Of a stretch of DNA of 64,000 bases, positions 37,791 to 46,050 are shown piece after piece. The notes below the pieces were generated by a model, which was given only the letters and a program-made list of their open reading frames with translations, was not told where the DNA came from and did not search any database. A program made the position numbers and the translations under genes. Numbering within the stretch: position 1 is the stretch's first letter; each line of letters opens with the position of its first letter. The DNA is taken from NCBI GenBank assembly GCA_029247265.1, contig JAQWLN010000132.1, forward strand, positions 1 to 64,000. Direction: 5' to 3'. This stretch comes from Fuerstiella sp. (GTDB taxonomy: Bacteria; Planctomycetota; Planctomycetia; Planctomycetales; Planctomycetaceae).

Positions 37791-38303
37791 ATGCCATCAT
37801 TTAGAACCTTTGTTGCTGTATGGAGTTGTGTCATACTCGCCAGTGCCGCCGCCCGGGCGGCCACGCCCACCGACGGCACAACGAAGGCCCGCGAATTCTA
37901 GGGGGCACTGGCCAACGGGGACCTGCAGTCACTCCGGTCGTTCTACGCCCCGAAAGTCACCTTAAAGGCCGGCAGCGAGTTGCTCAAACCGCGGTGGGCG
38001 CTTGATCCAGACGCCGACCGCCAAAAGGATCTGACCGTCGAACGCGAGAAGCTGCTGGTGGGTTACGAACGATTGATCGCCGGAGCCGGACGCGAGAGGT
38101 GGAAGGCGTTGTTCAGCAGAATTGACGCGGAACAAATTACGTCAGTCGCCGCTAAGGAAAAGGATAATCCGTTTACCTGTGTCCAGCCGGGGGACACGCT
38201 GTTGACTGTCGCAACGGGCCCCGGCGACGACAAACTGGTCTTTGTGCTTCGCCGAGACAATAATGGGCTTTGGCAGGTCGTGGCCGAAGCAATTGACTAT
38301 TAA
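37791..38303 (+). pseudogene. Small secreted NTF2/SnoaL-like protein interrupted by one amber codon
   Basis: The frame runs from ATG 37791 to TAA 38303 (170 codons) with a single in-frame TAG at codon 37 (37899-37901). A signal peptide is at about 1-24. After the TAG, GALANGDLQSLRSFYAPKVTLKAGSELL and the later LVFVLRRDNNGLWQVVAEAIDY look like an NTF2-like fold. TAG follows AREF and would be explained by a TGG-to-TAG change. The sigma gene begins 31 bases downstream. Naming the fold is tentative. If the amber is not read through, the product would be a bare signal peptide. Confidence 0.6.
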
Positions 38304-38334
38304 GATGGTCTCAGCCCTTGAACGGATCATCATC

Positions 38335-38862
38335 ATGAACCACGCCGCCGAGAATCTTGAAGACGTCGTCGAACGCTACCGCCAGTATCTGGTGATGCTC
38401 GCCGACCGACAACTGGATTCCCGTCTGCGTGGTAAGCTGGATGCTTCGGATGTCGTGCAGCAGACTCTGCTGGAAGCTCATCAGAACTACGAGCAGTTCC
38501 GCGGCACGCATGAGGAGGAAATGATCGCCTGGCTGCGAAAGATTCTGGCGCACAATCTATTGGACGCTGTCCGCGGACTGCGTCGTGAAAAACGTGACGT
38601 GGATCGGGAACAATCCATCGAAGCGGCGATTGAACAGTCAAGGCCCAGCCAGAAGCTGGCGCGACAGGAAGAGGCGCTGCAGCTGGAGGACACGATGGCT
38701 GAACTGCCGGAAGTTCAGCGAGAAGCATTGATTCTGAAGAATTGGCATGGCTGGACCATTGCTGAAATCGGCCAGCACATGGGACGCAGTTCCACGGCGG
38801 TCGACGGACTGCTGAAGCGAGCACTCAAACAACTTCGCCAACAACTCATAGAATCGGAGTAG
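38335..38862 (+). CDS. ECF RNA polymerase sigma factor, kinase-linked type
   Basis: The 175-aa protein has sigma region 2 at about 10-75 (LDASDVVQQTLLEAHQNYEQFRG, EMIAWLRKILAHNLLDAVRG) and region 4 at about 118-170 (LPEVQREALILKNWHGWTIAEIGQHMGRSSTAVDGLLKRALKQLR). This kind of ECF factor is typically encoded beside a membrane Ser/Thr kinase in planctomycetes, exactly as here: the kinase ATG is 4 bases after the sigma stop. The start is uncertain; ATG 38305 also lies in frame. The frame is intact although the partner kinase is broken. Confidence 0.9.
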   Translation: MNHAAENLEDVVERYRQYLVMLADRQLDSRLRGKLDASDVVQQTLLEAHQNYEQFRGTHEEEMIAWLRKILAHNLLDAVRGLRREKRDVDREQSIEAAIEQSRPSQKLARQEEALQLEDTMAELPEVQREALILKNWHGWTIAEIGQHMGRSSTAVDGLLKRALKQLRQQLIESE

Positions 38863-38866
38863 ACCA

Positions 38867-40579
38867 ATGGTCAACAGAACGCCGTCTGCAGATGAACGAG
38901 ACGAGATACTGAACCAGGTGTTGGTTCAGTATTTTGATGCCCGCGACTCGGGCCGAGGTCCGACACGCGACGAACTGCTGGCCATGCATCCGGAGTTAAT
39001 CGGTGACCCGAATCTGCCCGGGCAAATCGATGATTTTCTGAATGACCAGCAGCTGTTCGATCGATTTTCGGATGCTCTTGCGGTGACGAATATCGCCGCA
39101 GAAAACGATACGGCCAGCTGTCAGGACAATGCGACGCCCGCCCCCTTTGCTTTACCTGCCACGGATCACAGGCGGCGAGCGGGTACGTTAAAGCCGGGAA
39201 CGCTGTTCGGTGATTATGAACTGGTCGAAGAAATCGCCCGTGGCGGCATGGGAGTTGTCTACAAAGCACGACAGGTCAAGCTTGATCGGATCGTTGCGCT
39301 CAAAATGATCCTGACCGGACAGTTTACGTCCCGAGACGATCTGCGCCGCCTTCAGACAGAAGCAAAGCTGGCGGCCAACCTGCGACACGCGAACATCGTT
39401 GCCGTCCACAATGTGGGCGAGCATGACGAGCAGGCCTAGTTTTCTATGCAGTACATTGAAGGTCAGAGTCTGGCCGAAGTGATACGCGACGAGGCGCTCC
39501 CGCCAGGGCGCGCGGCGCAATACATCGCCACCGTCGCTGACGCCGTACACTATGCTCATGAAAAGAGCACACTGCACCGCGATCTGAAGCCGGCGAATAT
39601 CCTGGTCGACACCGACGATCAGCCACACGTCACTGACTTTGGTCTGGCCAGGCAAATTCAGACGAATCAGCAACTCACCGCCTCAGGCGCCATCCTTGGC
39701 ACGCCCAGCTACATGTCCCCCGAGCAGGCGCTGGGGAAGAATGAGCAGATTGATCGCACGACCGATGTCTACTCTCTGGGAGCCACACTCTATCATCTCC
39801 TGACCGGCCGACCGCCAGTGCAAGGAGACAGCCCATTAGATACGCTGCGTCAGGTGACCGACGAACGGCCGACGCCACCACGTCGAATCAATGACCAGGT
39901 TCCCCGAGACGTGGAGAAAATCTGTCTAAAGTGCCTGGGAAAAGAGCCCGCCGCGCGCTACGCCACGGCTCGTGAACTGGCTGACGATTTGCGTCGCTTT
40001 CTGCATGGCGAACCTGTTCATGCTCGTCCGATCAGATTGCCGGCTCGAGCCCTGCGGTGGACAATGCAGCATCCCTGGCGAGTGCTGGTGTCGCTCTTCA
40101 TGCTGGGTGTTGTGGCGTCGGGTGTGGATGGTTATCTTGACGCCGCCCACCTGGCCTATCTGGACAGCTTGGAGATTCGTTACGTTGTCGAACCGAGGAA
40201 TGGCCGGTTAACAACAACATTGGGCGAAAACGTCACGATCATTTACGAAGGATTGGAAGACGTGGATCTCATGGGCAGCTCCTCCGGCTCATTCACCGGA
40301 GGTGGCGGGCTGAATGCGAACGTGGTGATGAAAGGCAGAGCGGTCAGTGGCAATGGGACGAACGGCGTGCCGGGAATCAGCAGGCTGACGGTCAACGGGC
40401 ACAACGTTCGACTGTTCGATCACGGCCGAAAGCTATTGGTCGACTCTCCCCGAAGCGGTGGGACAACCTATTTTCCGGGGTATAGGCGCCAACATCTCAC
40501 GTTTACTGTAGTGCCCGATGGCAGTCATACGGTACGGCGGAAGGACCTGCCGCCAGAAACTACGTCCATCGCACAGTAA
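38867..40579 (+). pseudogene. Membrane Ser/Thr protein kinase with single in-frame amber codon
   Basis: The frame from ATG 38867 to 40579 has 570 codons with one TAG at codon 191 (39437-39439). Before it lie the Gly loop IARGGMGVVYKA and the ATP lysine in IVALKM. After it lie MQYIEG, HRDLKPAN near 237, DFGLA and GTPSYMSPEQALG. TAG occupies the residue before FSMQYIEG, where the family normally has Tyr, so TAC or TAT probably became TAG. A membrane segment is at about 405-425 and a small beta-rich C-terminal domain follows. With the stop obeyed, only the N-lobe would be made. A restart at ATG 39446 would give an inactive C-lobe. Everything else is intact, so loss must be recent, or the stop is suppressed. 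Confidence 0.85.
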
Positions 40580-40687: not shown

Positions 40688-41833
40688 CTACGGAAGATAG
40701 CCCTTCAGCCAGCCTCTGGATCCCTGAGGCGGAATGGCATCAGCGATGTCGTTGCCGTCTGCCAGCGTGAAGGAAATGGCCAGGGGGAACTCTCCTGGCG
40801 GGGCACCACGTGTGTATCGCCCGTCGCCAGCGAACTTACCGCTGGCAACCATGTTCCATGCGATAACTTTTCCAGCTTCTGTCTGCAGTTCTCCCAGCAG
40901 GTCAACGGAATAGCGGCGGTCGCCTGACGCTGTGCTTAATTCGGCGTGACCTTTTACAACGGTGCCATTGATTTCGAAACTTGATGTTGCAATTTCGCTG
41001 TCACGCCACATCGGCGGTTCGCCTCGCGTGTTGTCAACCAGGTGAAATCTGGCAATCCGGTGGGCCAGGGACTTAGGAAAACGTCCTGCCGCGAGCGACG
41101 TATGTTCGGCCCGGGACACCCACAGGTTGTCTCGCGACAATGCAGTCTGAAAGATCTGCTTCATGGCATCTTCCGTTTCCTCATAACCGCCCATGACCCT
41201 GGCCTGCACTCGCACGATCAGGCCACCGGCTGGTGGCGCCAGATTGTATCGCGGGTCCTCACGTTCGATGTTGATCTGGGCTGTCGCCGCGGGACGGAAT
41301 TGCAGCATGGCCTGCTGCAACATCTCCTTCACTCGTTCCGGCGTTCTGTTGTTCGTATAACCCAGAGAGGTGCCGTCAGCGGACGCCATGTACAGGCCCT
41401 GAGTCGTCCCGTTCTCGAAGTTGTGTCGCGGGCCCTGACTGGCGATCTGACGGTAAAAGTCTCCCTCGGCATCTTTCTGTCGGCGTTGATACCACTGGTC
41501 AATCGCCACAGGCACCGCGCGTGTCTTTAGAAATGTGACGATGTCTTTGTCTGCAAATGTCGACTCACGGTCGATTACACCATTGTTTCAGGTGCAGCCC
41601 AGCGGGTGTCCGTCCATAGCCCATATGAACAGGGGCTTGTTCTGTTTGGCGGCAATCTGCTGAGCATCCAGGACTGAGGTTTTCCAGGGCACTGTCCGCC
41701 ACAAGGCATCTTTCGAAGGCTGCAGCTCTGCATGAAGTCTGCGGAATTCCTTTTCTGTCAGATCGGCGGCCTGTGCCGCAGCGATCGGGCAGATTGTGAC
41801 CAGGGCAATTGTGAAGAAGTTTGTACGAAACAT
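40688..41833 (-). CDS. Candidate selenoprotein: secreted thioredoxin-like protein with in-frame TGA
   Basis: From ATG 41833 (ribosome site AAAGGA seven bases upstream) the frame runs to 40688, 381 sense codons including one TGA at codon 82 (41590-41588). Residues 1-23 are a signal peptide. WRTVPWKTSVLDAQQIAAKQNKPLF looks like the start of a thioredoxin-type fold, and the TGA falls in FIWAMDGHPLGCT-(TGA)-NNGVIDR, giving a C80-T-U82 redox motif. The long C-terminal part (LIVRVQARVMGGYEE, FHLVDNTRGEPPMW, AFTLADGNDIADAIPPQGSRG by pattern) is intact, which argues against decay. A hairpin at 41584-41556 fits a bacterial SECIS. I cannot name the family. The alternative is a nonsense mutation, as in neighbouring genes. 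No sel genes are in the window. Confidence 0.65.
41556..41584 (-). promoter_or_regulatory. Possible bacterial SECIS hairpin downstream of the in-frame TGA
   Basis: In the mRNA sense, UCGAC (41574-41570) pairs with GUCGA (41564-41560) around the loop CGUGA. AAUG (41584-41581) pairs with CAUU (41559-41556), leaving a six-base bulge. The loop starts 18 nucleotides after the UGA, and G is its second base. Known bacterial SECIS elements have a G in the first two loop bases and a UGA-to-loop distance of about 16-37 nt, so the geometry fits. The stem is short and could arise by chance. Confidence 0.5.
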
Positions 41834-42163
41834 GATCTGTCCTTTCGTAAAGGCTCTGGTAGTTCAGATTTCGGCACACGCTCCGGTCAGCGCTGAGCAG
41901 ACCACAGAGCCGTGATTGCCACTGAAATGGTATCAGAAACGGGTGCTGGCGTATTTGACATGCGGCCGATCCCAGCGGTTACCTGATGTTCACAATATGA
42001 TTGTCTATTCGTAATCGGCCGGAAACCCCGCCTTTTTGTTAGCCGTCTTTAGACACAGGTCGCATTGATGCTCACGTTTCGTCGCTGCATCAGGTAATCT
42101 TCCAGGATGTTCGTTGCCAGAACGAATCCACGTGTAGGCACCGACCGAAAGACCAGTCTAAGA
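41834..42163. other. Divergent intergenic region
   Basis: This region lies between the candidate selenoprotein and the first GTPase. The GTPase frame is open back to 42107. No promoter pair, operator or other gene was recognised. Confidence 0.35.
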
Positions 42164-44209
42164 ATGACTTCCGGCTCCGAATCCACCGAATTTCAGGACA
42201 TCGCCTCTGCGACGCGGCGTCTGTACGATGTCGTGCAGACGCTGCAGGATAAGGCGGAGTTTCTGCAACCTGCCGCCCTCGATGGCCAGGAGTGGTTTGA
42301 GCTGCTGCGTCAAAAACTGGTGCCTCAGCTTGGCGAAGATCCCTGGCTGGTGGCTGCGGTGGTCGGCGGGACGAATATCGGGAAGAGCGTCACCTTCAAT
42401 CATCTTGCAGGCAGCCAGGCCAGTGCGACCAGTCCCCTGGCGTCAGGTACGAAGCACCCGGTGTGCCTGGTACCGTCGGGGTTTTCGGAACGTCACGATC
42501 TTCAGGCGGTGTTTCCGGACTTTGCTCTGCATGAGTGGACGGCCGCGGGATCGGCTCTGGAAGAATCAGACGAACATAATCTGTACTGGCAGACATCGCC
42601 CGACTTGCCATCGACGCTGCTGGTGCTGGATACGCCGGATATTGACAGTGATGCCCGAGTCAACTGGGTACGGGCGGATGCGGTGCGTCGTAGTGCTGAT
42701 GTTCTGATTGCCGTGCTGACACAGCAGAAATACAACGACGCTGCCGTAAAGGAGTTTTTCCGCAAAGCCGGTGCGGAGGACAAGGCGGTACTGGTTGTCT
42801 TTAATCAGTGTCTGCTGCCGGATGACGAGCAGTACTGGCCGGTGTGGCTTAATACCTTTTGCAGTGAAACCGGAATTCAACCAGATGCCGTCTATCTGGC
42901 GCCAGCCGATCGCCGCGCCGCCGAGGCACTGGAGTTGCCGTTTTATGAACGGCCGTGGCCTGTTCATACTGGCTGGGGCCCCGACAGCGTCGGCGTGAAT
43001 TCGTCGCCTCGAAACCTGAACCAGGACCTGTCACGACTGAAGTTTCGCGAAATCCGAATTCGCACTCTGCGCGGCTCACTGAAGCAGGTGCTGGATACGA
43101 CAGACGGCGTTCCTCGGCATCTGAAGCAACTGAGACTCGCCAGCGACGAGCTTGCTACGGCGTCAAAGCGACTTTCCAGCGATGCGGTGCTGAAAATTCG
43201 AGACTGGCCGTCGCCACCGAACGCTTCGTTTGTGGAGGAAATTCGAATCTGGTGGAAAGCTCGCCAGCAGGGGTGGGCGAAGAAGATCAACACTTTCTAC
43301 GACACGGTTGGCACGGGCATTACCTGGCCATTCAAGAAGGCTCGCAATGCGATTCAGGGAGAACCCGTTCCACCAATCGACAAGTATCGCGAAGCCGAGT
43401 GGTCCGCCATTCTGACGACTGTCGAAGAACTGTTTGACAAACTGCAGTGGATGGCTGAAAGCGGTAATCGAATGATCAAACCGCAGGTCGAAGCTGTGCT
43501 GCAGGCCTCGACACGGACTCAGCTGATCCAGACACTCAAGAAGCATCACGCCAGCGTTGACTTTGATGCCGAGCTAAAAAGCATGATTGCCACTGAGATG
43601 GCGTCATTCAGTGAAGACAGTCCGCAGCTGTTTGAATTTTACCGTCAACTGCACAACGTATCAGCGGCCGTGCGCCCAATGACCAGCGTCGTGTTGTTCA
43701 GTCTGGGAATGGGGCCGGCCGGAGAAGCTGTTGCTCCCCTTGTGGCGGGCGCCGCGGCGAATGCAGTGGTTCATGTCGTGGCCGACGTCGCCGGAGGCAC
43801 CACCGCTGCCGTTGCTGGCGAAGCCGCTTTGTCCACCGTTGCGGGCCAGGGATCCGGCATGCTGCAGGCGTGGTTTCATCGTCTGCACACCGTGTTTACG
43901 CAGTGCCGAGTGGATTGGCTGACGAATCTGATACGCGAAGAGTTGCTGGGCAATCTTCCGGAGCAAATGCAGGCTGCGGCGAATCTGCCTTCTTCGTCCG
44001 AGTATCAGGAAGTGACAGCGGCTGTCGATCAACTGGCTGAACTAATTCAGCTGGTGGCGGACACACCTGCATCAGTCGCCGCGCTGAACGACGATTCAAC
44101 GGTCTCTGGCGTGAACGCTGATTCAACAACGGACGGCATCGTTGCCGAAGACACCGCCGCAACTCTTCCGATTCAACGCAATGCGACGCAGGAATCCACC
44201 GAATCATGA
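42164..44209 (+). CDS. Large P-loop GTPase, dynamin-like, first of a pair
   Basis: The 681-aa protein has a P-loop GGTNIGKS at 68-75 and a G3-like DTPDID near 158. The G4 position reads NQCL instead of the canonical N/TKxD, so nucleotide specificity is uncertain. Helical regions at about 280-500 are charged, and a Gly/Ala-rich hydrophobic stretch (LGMGPAGEAVAPLVAGAAANAVVHVVADVAGG) near 517-550 could insert in or line a membrane, as in bacterial dynamin-like proteins. Its stop overlaps the start of the next GTPase (ATGA), so the two are coupled and may form a heteromer. ATG 42164 is chosen; 42107 is an in-frame alternative. Function unknown. Confidence 0.75.
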   Translation: MTSGSESTEFQDIASATRRLYDVVQTLQDKAEFLQPAALDGQEWFELLRQKLVPQLGEDPWLVAAVVGGTNIGKSVTFNHLAGSQASATSPLASGTKHPVCLVPSGFSERHDLQAVFPDFALHEWTAAGSALEESDEHNLYWQTSPDLPSTLLVLDTPDIDSDARVNWVRADAVRRSADVLIAVLTQQKYNDAAVKEFFRKAGAEDKAVLVVFNQCLLPDDEQYWPVWLNTFCSETGIQPDAVYLAPADRRAAEALELPFYERPWPVHTGWGPDSVGVNSSPRNLNQDLSRLKFREIRIRTLRGSLKQVLDTTDGVPRHLKQLRLASDELATASKRLSSDAVLKIRDWPSPPNASFVEEIRIWWKARQQGWAKKINTFYDTVGTGITWPFKKARNAIQGEPVPPIDKYREAEWSAILTTVEELFDKLQWMAESGNRMIKPQVEAVLQASTRTQLIQTLKKHHASVDFDAELKSMIATEMASFSEDSPQLFEFYRQLHNVSAAVRPMTSVVLFSLGMGPAGEAVAPLVAGAAANAVVHVVADVAGGTTAAVAGEAALSTVAGQGSGMLQAWFHRLHTVFTQCRVDWLTNLIREELLGNLPEQMQAAANLPSSSEYQEVTAAVDQLAELIQLVADTPASVAALNDDSTVSGVNADSTTDGIVAEDTAATLPIQRNATQESTES

Positions 44210-46050
44210 CAGCGCACGAACAGTTGGAACATCTTGCTCTGCTGGCCGAAGTCGATGACCTGACGGACCGACTGTCACGGTGGATCGACGATTGCCCGGA
44301 TTGGCAGACTGCTCACCGTGCCAGAGCCCTGTTGAAACGGTTGCTGGAGCGAGTTCACACGCTGCGATTTCGCCTGGAAACACCGCTGGTTGTGGCGACC
44401 TTCGGTGGCACCGGCACTGGGAAAAGTTCACTGGTCAACGCTTTGGTGGGACGCGAGGTCACAACAGTCGGACGCGAACGGCCGACAACGACCACTCCGA
44501 TTCTGCTGGTGCATCCTGATATTGAACCTGAGGCGCTGGAACTGGATTTATCGGCGTTCAATGTGAAACGAGTTGACGCGCCGGTGCTGCGTGACATCGT
44601 TGTGATTGACTGCCCGGACCCGGATACCAGTGAAACATCGGCCACGGGAAGCAACCTGGCAATCCTTCGCGAGATCGTTCCGCACTGCGACGTGCTGCTG
44701 TACACATCAACGCAGCAAAAATACAAGAACGCACGCGTCATTGATGAGCTGATTGATGTGGCCAGTGGCTGTCGGCTGGTGTTCGTGCAGACGCACGCAG
44801 AACTGGACTCGGACATTCGTGATGACTGGAAGAAATTTCTTTCTTCCGACTACGAAGTTCCGGAGATGTTCTTCGTCGATTCGGTCAAGGCGCTGCAGGA
44901 GCAACAGGGGGATCATCGTCCTTCCGGCGACTTTGGGCGACTTCTGGATCTGCTCAGCAGCCAGTTGGGCGCGGCTCGCCGAGTGGAAATTCGTCGGGCC
45001 AATCTGATTGACCTGCTTCAGGAAGCGCTGGCTCACTGTCGATCGGACTATGACGCCAACCTGCCGAAGGTTCAGGAACTGATCGAAACCCTGGAGCAGC
45101 AGAGAGTCCGCCTGAAAGAAACGCTCACCGGACAGCTGTGCGACGAACTGCTGGTCAATCGAACTCTGTGGGAACGCAGACTGCTGAGTTCTGTGACCGA
45201 CATGTGGGGCTTCAGTCCTTTTTCTGCAGTGCTGCGACTGTACAACGGGCTGGGAGCGTTCATTGCGTCGTTCACGTTCTTTCGAGCTCGAACGTCCGCG
45301 CAGATGGCTTTGATTGGCGCGGTGCAGGGAGCACGCTGGGTCAAGTCACGAGCGAAAGAGAATGAAGCCGAATCGACGCTGGAACGTCTGTCAACATTCG
45401 GCATTAATGACCAGCAACTGCAGGAAAGTCGGCTGGTGATCTCCGGACACATTCATACCGCCGGAATCGACTACGCCATGTCCGATGATCGACGAGACCT
45501 GAGTGAACTGCGTCGGCAAGCTGCCGCACTGGAAGGAGAGTTTCTTGGCGACGCCGGCCGGGCGGTTGACGAAGTCATCGAAGAACTGGCGGCCGCCAGC
45601 GGCGGATGGCTGACACGAGTGTGGTACGAGGTTCTGTTTCTGGCATACATCGTGTTTCTACTGGGACGCGTCGGCTACAACTTCTTCTGGTCTTCATTTC
45701 TTGGTCCGATTGTCAGCGGCTCGAATTCTCATGAGCCGTTGCTGGAGGTCGACTTCTACATCCCCGCTCTGATTTTTCTGGTGATCTGGTCGGGCTTTCT
45801 GGTGACGACGTTTACCTGGGGACTGCGTCGAGGTCTGACCAGTCGGATACAGAAGTTCGCTCAGTCCATGGCTGAATCGAGATTACTGCATGGATTATTT
45901 CCCAATCTGGAAGAAACATGTCGATACGTCGTCCGCGACGATCAGCAACTGACCACACTCCTGGATCAGACAACCTCGTTTCGCCGCCATATCGCGGATC
46001 CTTCAGTCGGCTTCCTCGGCGGGCGACGGGAAGAACCGGCAGAATCATGA
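44206..46050 (+). CDS. Membrane-associated P-loop GTPase, second of a pair
   Basis: The 614-aa protein has a P-loop GGTGTGKSS at 67-75, a switch region with TTTTPILL near 104 and a G3-like DCPDPD near 144. A possible G4 is QTHAELD near 200. A helical region follows, and two hydrophobic segments lie near 470-495 (YEVLFLAYIVFLLGRVGYNFF) and 520-545 (FYIPALIFLVIWSGFLVTTFTWG), so the C-terminus is in the membrane. It overlaps the upstream GTPase by four bases. Era/dynamin-type mechanics at a membrane are plausible; paired bacterial dynamins act together in membrane remodelling. Direct evidence for the function is lacking. Confidence 0.78.
   Translation: MTAHEQLEHLALLAEVDDLTDRLSRWIDDCPDWQTAHRARALLKRLLERVHTLRFRLETPLVVATFGGTGTGKSSLVNALVGREVTTVGRERPTTTTPILLVHPDIEPEALELDLSAFNVKRVDAPVLRDIVVIDCPDPDTSETSATGSNLAILREIVPHCDVLLYTSTQQKYKNARVIDELIDVASGCRLVFVQTHAELDSDIRDDWKKFLSSDYEVPEMFFVDSVKALQEQQGDHRPSGDFGRLLDLLSSQLGAARRVEIRRANLIDLLQEALAHCRSDYDANLPKVQELIETLEQQRVRLKETLTGQLCDELLVNRTLWERRLLSSVTDMWGFSPFSAVLRLYNGLGAFIASFTFFRARTSAQMALIGAVQGARWVKSRAKENEAESTLERLSTFGINDQQLQESRLVISGHIHTAGIDYAMSDDRRDLSELRRQAAALEGEFLGDAGRAVDEVIEELAAASGGWLTRVWYEVLFLAYIVFLLGRVGYNFFWSSFLGPIVSGSNSHEPLLEVDFYIPALIFLVIWSGFLVTTFTWGLRRGLTSRIQKFAQSMAESRLLHGLFPNLEETCRYVVRDDQQLTTLLDQTTSFRRHIADPSVGFLGGRREEPAES

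Follow-up and report, generated by a model that had tools for sequence, protein, structure and literature searches.

A gene on the minus strand of the window, by which we mean the whole 64,000-nt stretch of a Fuerstiella sp. contig that was analyzed, is interrupted by an in-frame TGA, which raises the question of whether this codon terminates translation or encodes selenocysteine (Sec). The gene (40688..41833) codes for 381 residues when TGA codon 82 (41588..41590, read from 41590 to 41588) is taken as Sec; it ends in TAG, and homologues match it along its entire length. Reading the sequence by eye, we found a Shine-Dalgarno-like AAAGGA 5′ of the ATG (41840..41845) and a probable signal peptide in residues 1-22 (41768..41833), with a hydrophobic core and a cleavage-like site, AQA-AD; residues 1-20 of this region have low pLDDT in the AlphaFold2 model. 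Translation of 40688-41833 confirmed that the TGA is the single internal stop and that it lies two residues past Cys80 in GHPLGCT-U-NNG, as a preliminary description of this DNA had stated, so that the redox motif Cys80-Thr81-Sec82 occupies 41588..41596. The same description had predicted that ordinary gene calling would split the gene, and the table-11 listing of open reading frames indeed divides it into the two expected fragments, 41588-41833 (81 aa) and 40688-41515 (275 aa).

Homologues were found in 97 of the 392 sampled Planctomycetota genomes (E 1e-8 or better; window genome included), and from a scan of genome contigs we kept 80 of 87 confirmed loci, with titles naming Planctomycetota, Verrucomicrobia and a few other groups. 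The nearest relative, L052, is titled Fuerstiella sp., is 80% identical and has the same TGA. When the loci were searched with tblastn, 110 of the 112 HSPs spanned codon 82, and all 110 carried TGA, never TAA or TAG, while Cys80 was present in 109/109 HSPs that span it. A wider HMM set, which adds 52 stretches made up of 11 matches listed without a stop and a hand-chosen spread of distant ones, had TGA at codon 82 in 152/160 rows, Ser in six, Asp in one, Pro in one and Cys in none; some of these rows are one gene reached twice, the number of distinct downstream 75-mers being 148. Both the query and the HMM bore Cys at codon 82, so the search favored Cys forms. Among homologues of bacterial selenoproteins, Cys in place of Sec is usual, though not obligatory. 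The expectation that homologues would have Cys or TGA at this codon held for TGA, whereas the alternatives turned out to be Ser, Asp and Pro, with no Cys in the family. Among the 152 Sec members, the Cys is placed as CxU in 134, as CU in eight and as UxxC in one, with no nearby Cys in nine; the Cys at −2 is therefore absent in 18. Two further samples agree: the 288 genomes taken around a Verrucomicrobiia-titled locus gave two matches, one from the central genome, each with one TGA, and of 29 genomes in one class, largely overlapping the 392, 22 had a match and every listed match contained one TGA. One member (L111, strain K23_9) comes from a complete chromosome record.

Several loci deserve separate mention. 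L165, L167, L168, L170 and L171 form a subfamily with an IDRP....RCU motif, in which Cys immediately precedes Sec, and with its own hairpin 18 nt past the UGA. Tandem TGA-bearing paralogues lie on one contig in L040 (1513-2616 and 2609-3775). L110 has one more in-frame stop and L131 has its frame broken, either of which may reflect decay or assembly error, and the family matches of G013 and G022 contain an additional TAG.

Sec insertion requires dedicated factors, which the preliminary description proposed to look for, and selA, selB, selD and the gene for tRNA-Sec are all present in the window genome (G000; 6.53 Mb, 280 contigs, 90.5% complete). SelB scored 315.6 bits and tRNA-Sec 73.4 bits, both above cut-off, SelA scored 520.7 bits, and the tRNA, whose anticodon is UCA according to ARAGORN, follows SelD (264 bits) at a distance of about 140 nt. 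Using a threshold of E 1e-60 or better in the same 392 genomes, we found SelA in 242: in 86 of the 90 genomes with a TGA form versus 156 of the 302 others (Fisher p about 1e-16, relatedness ignored). The 90 are genomes in which a listed match contains a single internal TGA, the position of this codon being checked for members of the HMM set; from the 97 family-positive genomes, G082 and G119 were dropped, as their matches miss codon 82, and five carrying only non-TGA forms, two of which have SelA, were set aside. The TGA-form genomes without a SelA match (G164, G214, G264 and G280) are all drafts of 480-990 contigs, and 20 of the 21 genomes behind the named loci, which were selected from the 80, have SelA. 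In the draft G280 (L210, L217-L228) 13 matches to the family reached E 1e-6, 12 of them with one TGA, and there was no SelA match; the contig bearing selA may be missing. Conversely, G307, from the same genus as the window genome, has SelA and no family match, so another factor presumably maintains the Sec machinery there.

Just past the TGA lies the core hairpin UCGAC-CGUGA-GUCGA (41560..41574, minus strand), in which a 5-bp stem (41574-41570 with 41564-41560) closes a loop (41569-41565) that begins 18 nt past the UGA and, as had been described, has G at its second position. The energy of the hairpin in the window, −7.5 kcal/mol for a 51-nt stretch and −7.3 for the constrained window, just reaches or just misses the energy rule, and single-sequence folding was discarded as SECIS evidence (z = 0.18; 105 of 200 shuffles folded at least equally well). 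The claim of a SECIS-like hairpin draws its support instead from covariation and synonymous constraint across homologues, and not from folding energy. In a close set of 93 distinct homologues with Asp-Arg at codons 88-89, 89 have all five stem pairs and four have four of the five, and the G at loop position 2 is present in all. When synonymous codons were redrawn using each gene's own usage, full pairing had a mean of 16.5% and a maximum of 30.1% over 200 rounds. Codons 87 and 91 covary at their third positions (C-G, T-A, G-C and G-T; stem pair 18-30), and codons 88 and 90 do likewise (C-G and T-A; stem pair 21-27). On a FastTree tree built with the columns of the site excluded, the state of these pairs changed five times and twice, respectively; among independent comparisons across supported branches, both partners had changed in 4/4 and 2/2 cases, which is too few for a sign test. 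Codon 89 is CGT (89 sequences) or CGG (four), meaning that the loop G is followed by U or G, and this usage in the close homologues matches the preference of the bacterial SECIS model for G-U or G-G in the loop, as given in the available text of PMC13188914. For distant members we required a stem of at least 5 bp whose loop opens with G-G or G-U, 18-31 nt past the UGA. Such a stem is present in 40 of 46 (null mean 38%, maximum 54%, 100 rounds), including L145, for which the folding energy is positive, and no hairpin was found by these rules in the other six.

These observations allow the competing readings of codon 82 to be weighed. If the TGA were an ordinary stop, the locus would be a pseudogene, a pair of neighboring coding pieces or an artifact of assembly; without Sec the open reading frame does divide into two fragments, and the in-frame TAG of the neighboring kinase gene indicates that damage or errors do occur in this assembly. 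However, the same TGA is found in the separate, 80%-identical L052 and in every covering match, conservation of the hairpin extends to synonymous sites, and dN/dS against L052 is 0.106 before the TGA (codons 1-81) and 0.101 after it (codons 83-381). Such strong purifying selection past the TGA agrees with the earlier remark that the downstream part is well kept. The homologues have already refuted this explanation, and we give it a negligible probability. That the TGA is read as some other amino acid, through a genome-wide change of code or near-cognate readthrough, is also very improbable. Readthrough alone would likewise hold the downstream frame under selection, but the true terminators vary among members, with TGA in some and TAA or TAG in others, and L026 and L070, for example, terminate at a TGA and still have the one at codon 82. 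Since members use TGA both as a stop and at this codon, TGA is not reassigned as a whole; moreover, tRNA-Sec(UCA), SelA, SelB and SelD are present and the hairpin obeys the bacterial SECIS rules. Judging from the sequences, the "stop" at codon 82 almost certainly encodes selenocysteine.

We then asked what becomes of the family where Sec is absent. Using the family alignment as query, we searched the 150 genomes that had no SelA match, split into two lists of 75; 10 and 7 genomes, respectively, matched at E 1e-6. The long matches that covered the site were TGA forms in the drafts G214, G264 and G280 and Ser and Pro forms in G097, G174 and G296. L204, L214 and L215 are ordinary WCxPC thioredoxins, the first Cys of which aligns to the Sec column in weak, short matches; L201, L202 and L213 have at that column a Cys that is either single or of CxC type and match over the N-terminal part only (E 3e-11, 1e-9 and 2e-13, respectively); and a few weak, short matches have neither Cys nor TGA there. 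Owing to the Cys found on the Sec column in these distant partial matches, we dropped the absolute claim that there is no Cys homologue: distant Cys relatives exist, and the family proper is without a Cys form in this sample. L206, L207, L209, L216 and L226-L228 belong to a distant subfamily with TGA at or beside the aligned site, in motifs that include CUTNARIARTVLFSNP and CUAAGxxxRTVTFSD, and are probably more uncatalogued selenoproteins.

The eight non-Sec members have lost more than Sec. Cys80 is found in none of them, and neither is Gln145 (codon at 41399..41401, minus strand), which is present in 145/149 Sec members and is, of the conserved residues, the one whose presence follows that of Sec most closely. 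All eight keep Trp50, Pro67, Trp71, Gly75, Pro77, Arg89 and Gly154. The tree has four changes between Sec and non-Sec states, so these eight members represent few independent events.

To place the protein structurally we used AlphaFold2 and Foldseek. The full model (pLDDT 92.6, pTM 0.88) comprises a thioredoxin-fold domain at residues about 27-178 (41300..41755) and a beta-rich C-terminal domain at residues about 205-380 (40694..41221). The whole-length model gave only weak Foldseek matches, mostly to beta-barrels (best E 0.01), so the N-terminal domain was folded by itself (pLDDT 94.0). In the PDB this domain matched 3f9u (E 1.6e-4), 3ira (3.9e-4), 7tkv, a Thioredox_DsbH domain (1.9e-3), the ERp18 structure 1sen (3.9e-3) and the DsbH structure 2ju5 (8.8e-3), and also AGR2/AGR3. 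The C-terminal beta domain found weak Foldseek matches only, none of them confident, and a sequence search of the PDB found nothing below E 0.1. In the model, the redox residue begins the active-site helix, Sec82 standing directly before helix 83-90; the CxxC active site is absent, and by our reading of the alignment the place of the cis-Pro seems to be held by Gln145-Gly146. The N-terminal domain is thus predicted to be a DsbH-type thioredoxin fold. The "thioredoxin-type start" seen in the preliminary description is borne out by fold prediction, although the protein reaches no curated family cut-off. Its broader interpretation, a Sec-containing secreted redox family, is supported as well: neither of the findings that it named as contrary, a genome without Sec machinery and homologues with unrelated sense codons at codon 82 under relaxed downstream selection, was what we obtained. 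We consider it very likely that this is a secreted, Sec-containing redox family with a thioredoxin fold.

The gene neighborhood was rejected as a guide to function, since it is mostly unconserved among the loci. Neighbors that recur in some loci are sulfatase-like and DUF1501-like proteins (from a reading of their starts), PSD1 and LRR proteins (from Pfam). In eight of 110 loci, the family gene adjoins one for a fusion of SelD with a pyridine-nucleotide oxidoreductase domain, with SelA beyond it in six. These loci (L093, L094, L100, L104, L108, L110, L116 and L129, grouped by BLAST, with Pfam run on L110 and L108) have titles naming Rhodopirellula, Rubripirellula, Planctomycetaceae and Planctomycetota, and the arrangement looks like that of one lineage. 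In seven loci with Verrucomicrobia-type titles (L060, L062, L064, L065, L069, L078 and L087), a squalene-hopene-cyclase-like repeat protein (Pfam on L065) is encoded directly downstream; the starts of six of the seven contain a CxxCH (heme c-like) motif, and this protein is a possible functional partner. In the window, a pair of GTPase/dynamin-like proteins (Pfam MMR_HSR1 and Dynamin_N) is encoded side by side (42107-46050, plus strand), divergent from the selenoprotein gene. On its other side, an ECF-type sigma factor gene (38242-38862) is followed by a serine/threonine kinase gene (38867-40579, plus strand) whose TAG at 39437-39439, within the kinase domain, may represent decay, error or strain variation.

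From the machinery, the element and the conservation of the codon we infer Sec insertion at UGA-82: SelB-GTP carrying Sec-tRNA(Sec) would bind the hairpin just 3′ of the UGA, and Sec would be inserted without termination. The protein would be exported, probably to the periplasm, and its predicted thioredoxin-fold domain would set Sec82 ahead of the active-site helix, at the position of the nucleophilic Cys in thioredoxin. There Sec82 may attack a disulfide or a peroxide-type substrate, with Cys80 resolving it through a CxU selenenylsulfide. Gln145, together with Arg270 and His264 of the beta-rich C-terminal domain, would complete the site, these three residues being assigned to it because they appear to be lost together with Sec. 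The protein is therefore most likely a periplasmic selenol oxidoreductase working by a Cys80-Sec82 selenenylsulfide cycle, with which disulfide and peroxide substrates are both compatible; within the redox family, we lean toward a thiol-disulfide oxidoreductase.

The active set of glutathione peroxidase (GPX) is Sec-Gln-Trp-Asn, and a peroxidase, in which Sec82 would reduce peroxide and Gln145 would act with a conserved Trp and Asn in a GPX-like manner, is a variant compatible with the Sec part of our best explanation. Such a role is suggested by Gln145 being, after Sec itself, the column tied most strongly to Sec and by the conservation of Trp71 and Asn84. Nevertheless, Trp71 is kept in 8/8 non-Sec members and therefore is not Sec-specific, and the 50 Foldseek matches listed include DsbH, ERp18, AGR and thioredoxin folds but no GPX, and we regard a peroxidase as rather unlikely, while still worth considering. 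Sec might also ligate a metal or metalloid (Hg, As or Cu) rather than undergo redox cycling, and would be kept at codon 82 all the same. Sec in SaoB, SaoC and UXX-star may bind metal, according to the available part of PMC13188914, and CU replaces CxU in eight of the 152 Sec members; against this stand the predicted thioredoxin fold with Sec just ahead of the active-site helix and the lack of any metal-resistance gene among the seven recurrent neighbor families (Pfam, one member each). Metal binding seems improbable to us, and the selenenylsulfide oxidoreductase remains the preferred reading.

Finally, we compared the protein with catalogued families. No NCBIfam model (June 2026) matched the window protein at an E limit of 10 (the HMMER filters discard most matches weaker than about 0.1), and annotation that relies on these models would therefore miss the family. 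Pfam gave nothing above cut-off, PF03190 reaching 12.4 bits against a cut-off of 27 (E 0.15), and there was no match to the family in PHROGs or in plasmids. The Thioredoxin_7 (PF13899), Thioredox_DsbH (PF03190) and DsbH/ERp18/AGR2 types share the predicted N-terminal fold, and PF13899 matches 3 of 33 members and PF03190 matches 2, all weakly (best E 8e-4 and 1e-3, respectively); the family differs from them in having CxU instead of CxxC, Sec, and a long beta-rich C-terminal domain. NF041383 (VPGUxxT thioredoxin-like; best E 0.006 in 4/33 diverse members) and NF041199 (Trx7/PDZ (seleno)protein; E 0.09 in 1/33) match weakly and are, as here, thioredoxin-like groups that include selenoproteins, but their Sec motifs are VPGU and CxxU, respectively, and that of the window protein is HPLGCTU. 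CxU selenoproteins catalogued in the available text of PMC13188914 comprise Sec.1 thioredoxin-like (PF13192), ferredoxin-thioredoxin reductase (NF041072), rhodanese form 3 (NF041203) and UshA-like (NF041198) proteins. These share a Cys two residues ahead of Sec, but their models do not match the window protein. The 119-family selenoprotein table of 2026 in that available text has no entry that we recognized as matching by motif or by Pfam or NCBIfam model, and the term "planctomyc" does not occur in the same text (PMC13188914). Two planctomycetes have been reported to have selenoproteins, in a list that sits in the supplement (PMC4807772); seven marine selenoprotein families are each listed with Cys homologues in the portion available of PMC2398784. 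None of the families in the accessible text of PMC9312934 was recognized as the present one, and the terms searched for are absent from that of PMC9402790. The family is new to the catalogues checked and likely absent from print. It is of a known kind, a thioredoxin-fold bacterial selenoprotein, and is distinguished by unusually strict use of Sec, with no Cys form in the family proper.

It is conceivable, although we put it forward tentatively, that the family is the best-conserved part of a large secreted superfamily, mostly uncatalogued, with Sec-strict catalysis and a Sec-Gln site unlike that of other thioredoxin-fold oxidoreductases. Such a superfamily would span CxU, CU, UxxC and Cys-less sites in Planctomycetota and on Verrucomicrobia-titled contigs, and would have been missed because search methods depend on Cys homologues; lineages leaving Sec would have moved to Ser, Asp or Pro, losing Cys80 and Gln145 as well and keeping no Cys enzyme. 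The deep-Sep method may overlook selenoproteins without Cys homologues, as stated in the available text of PMC12013277; the family fits this blind spot, and so more such families may exist. A family common among planctomycetes, yet unseen by NCBIfam models, offers natural data on the loss of Sec, in which the replacement is Ser, Asp or Pro and not Cys, and its motif and hairpin ease the annotation of further members.
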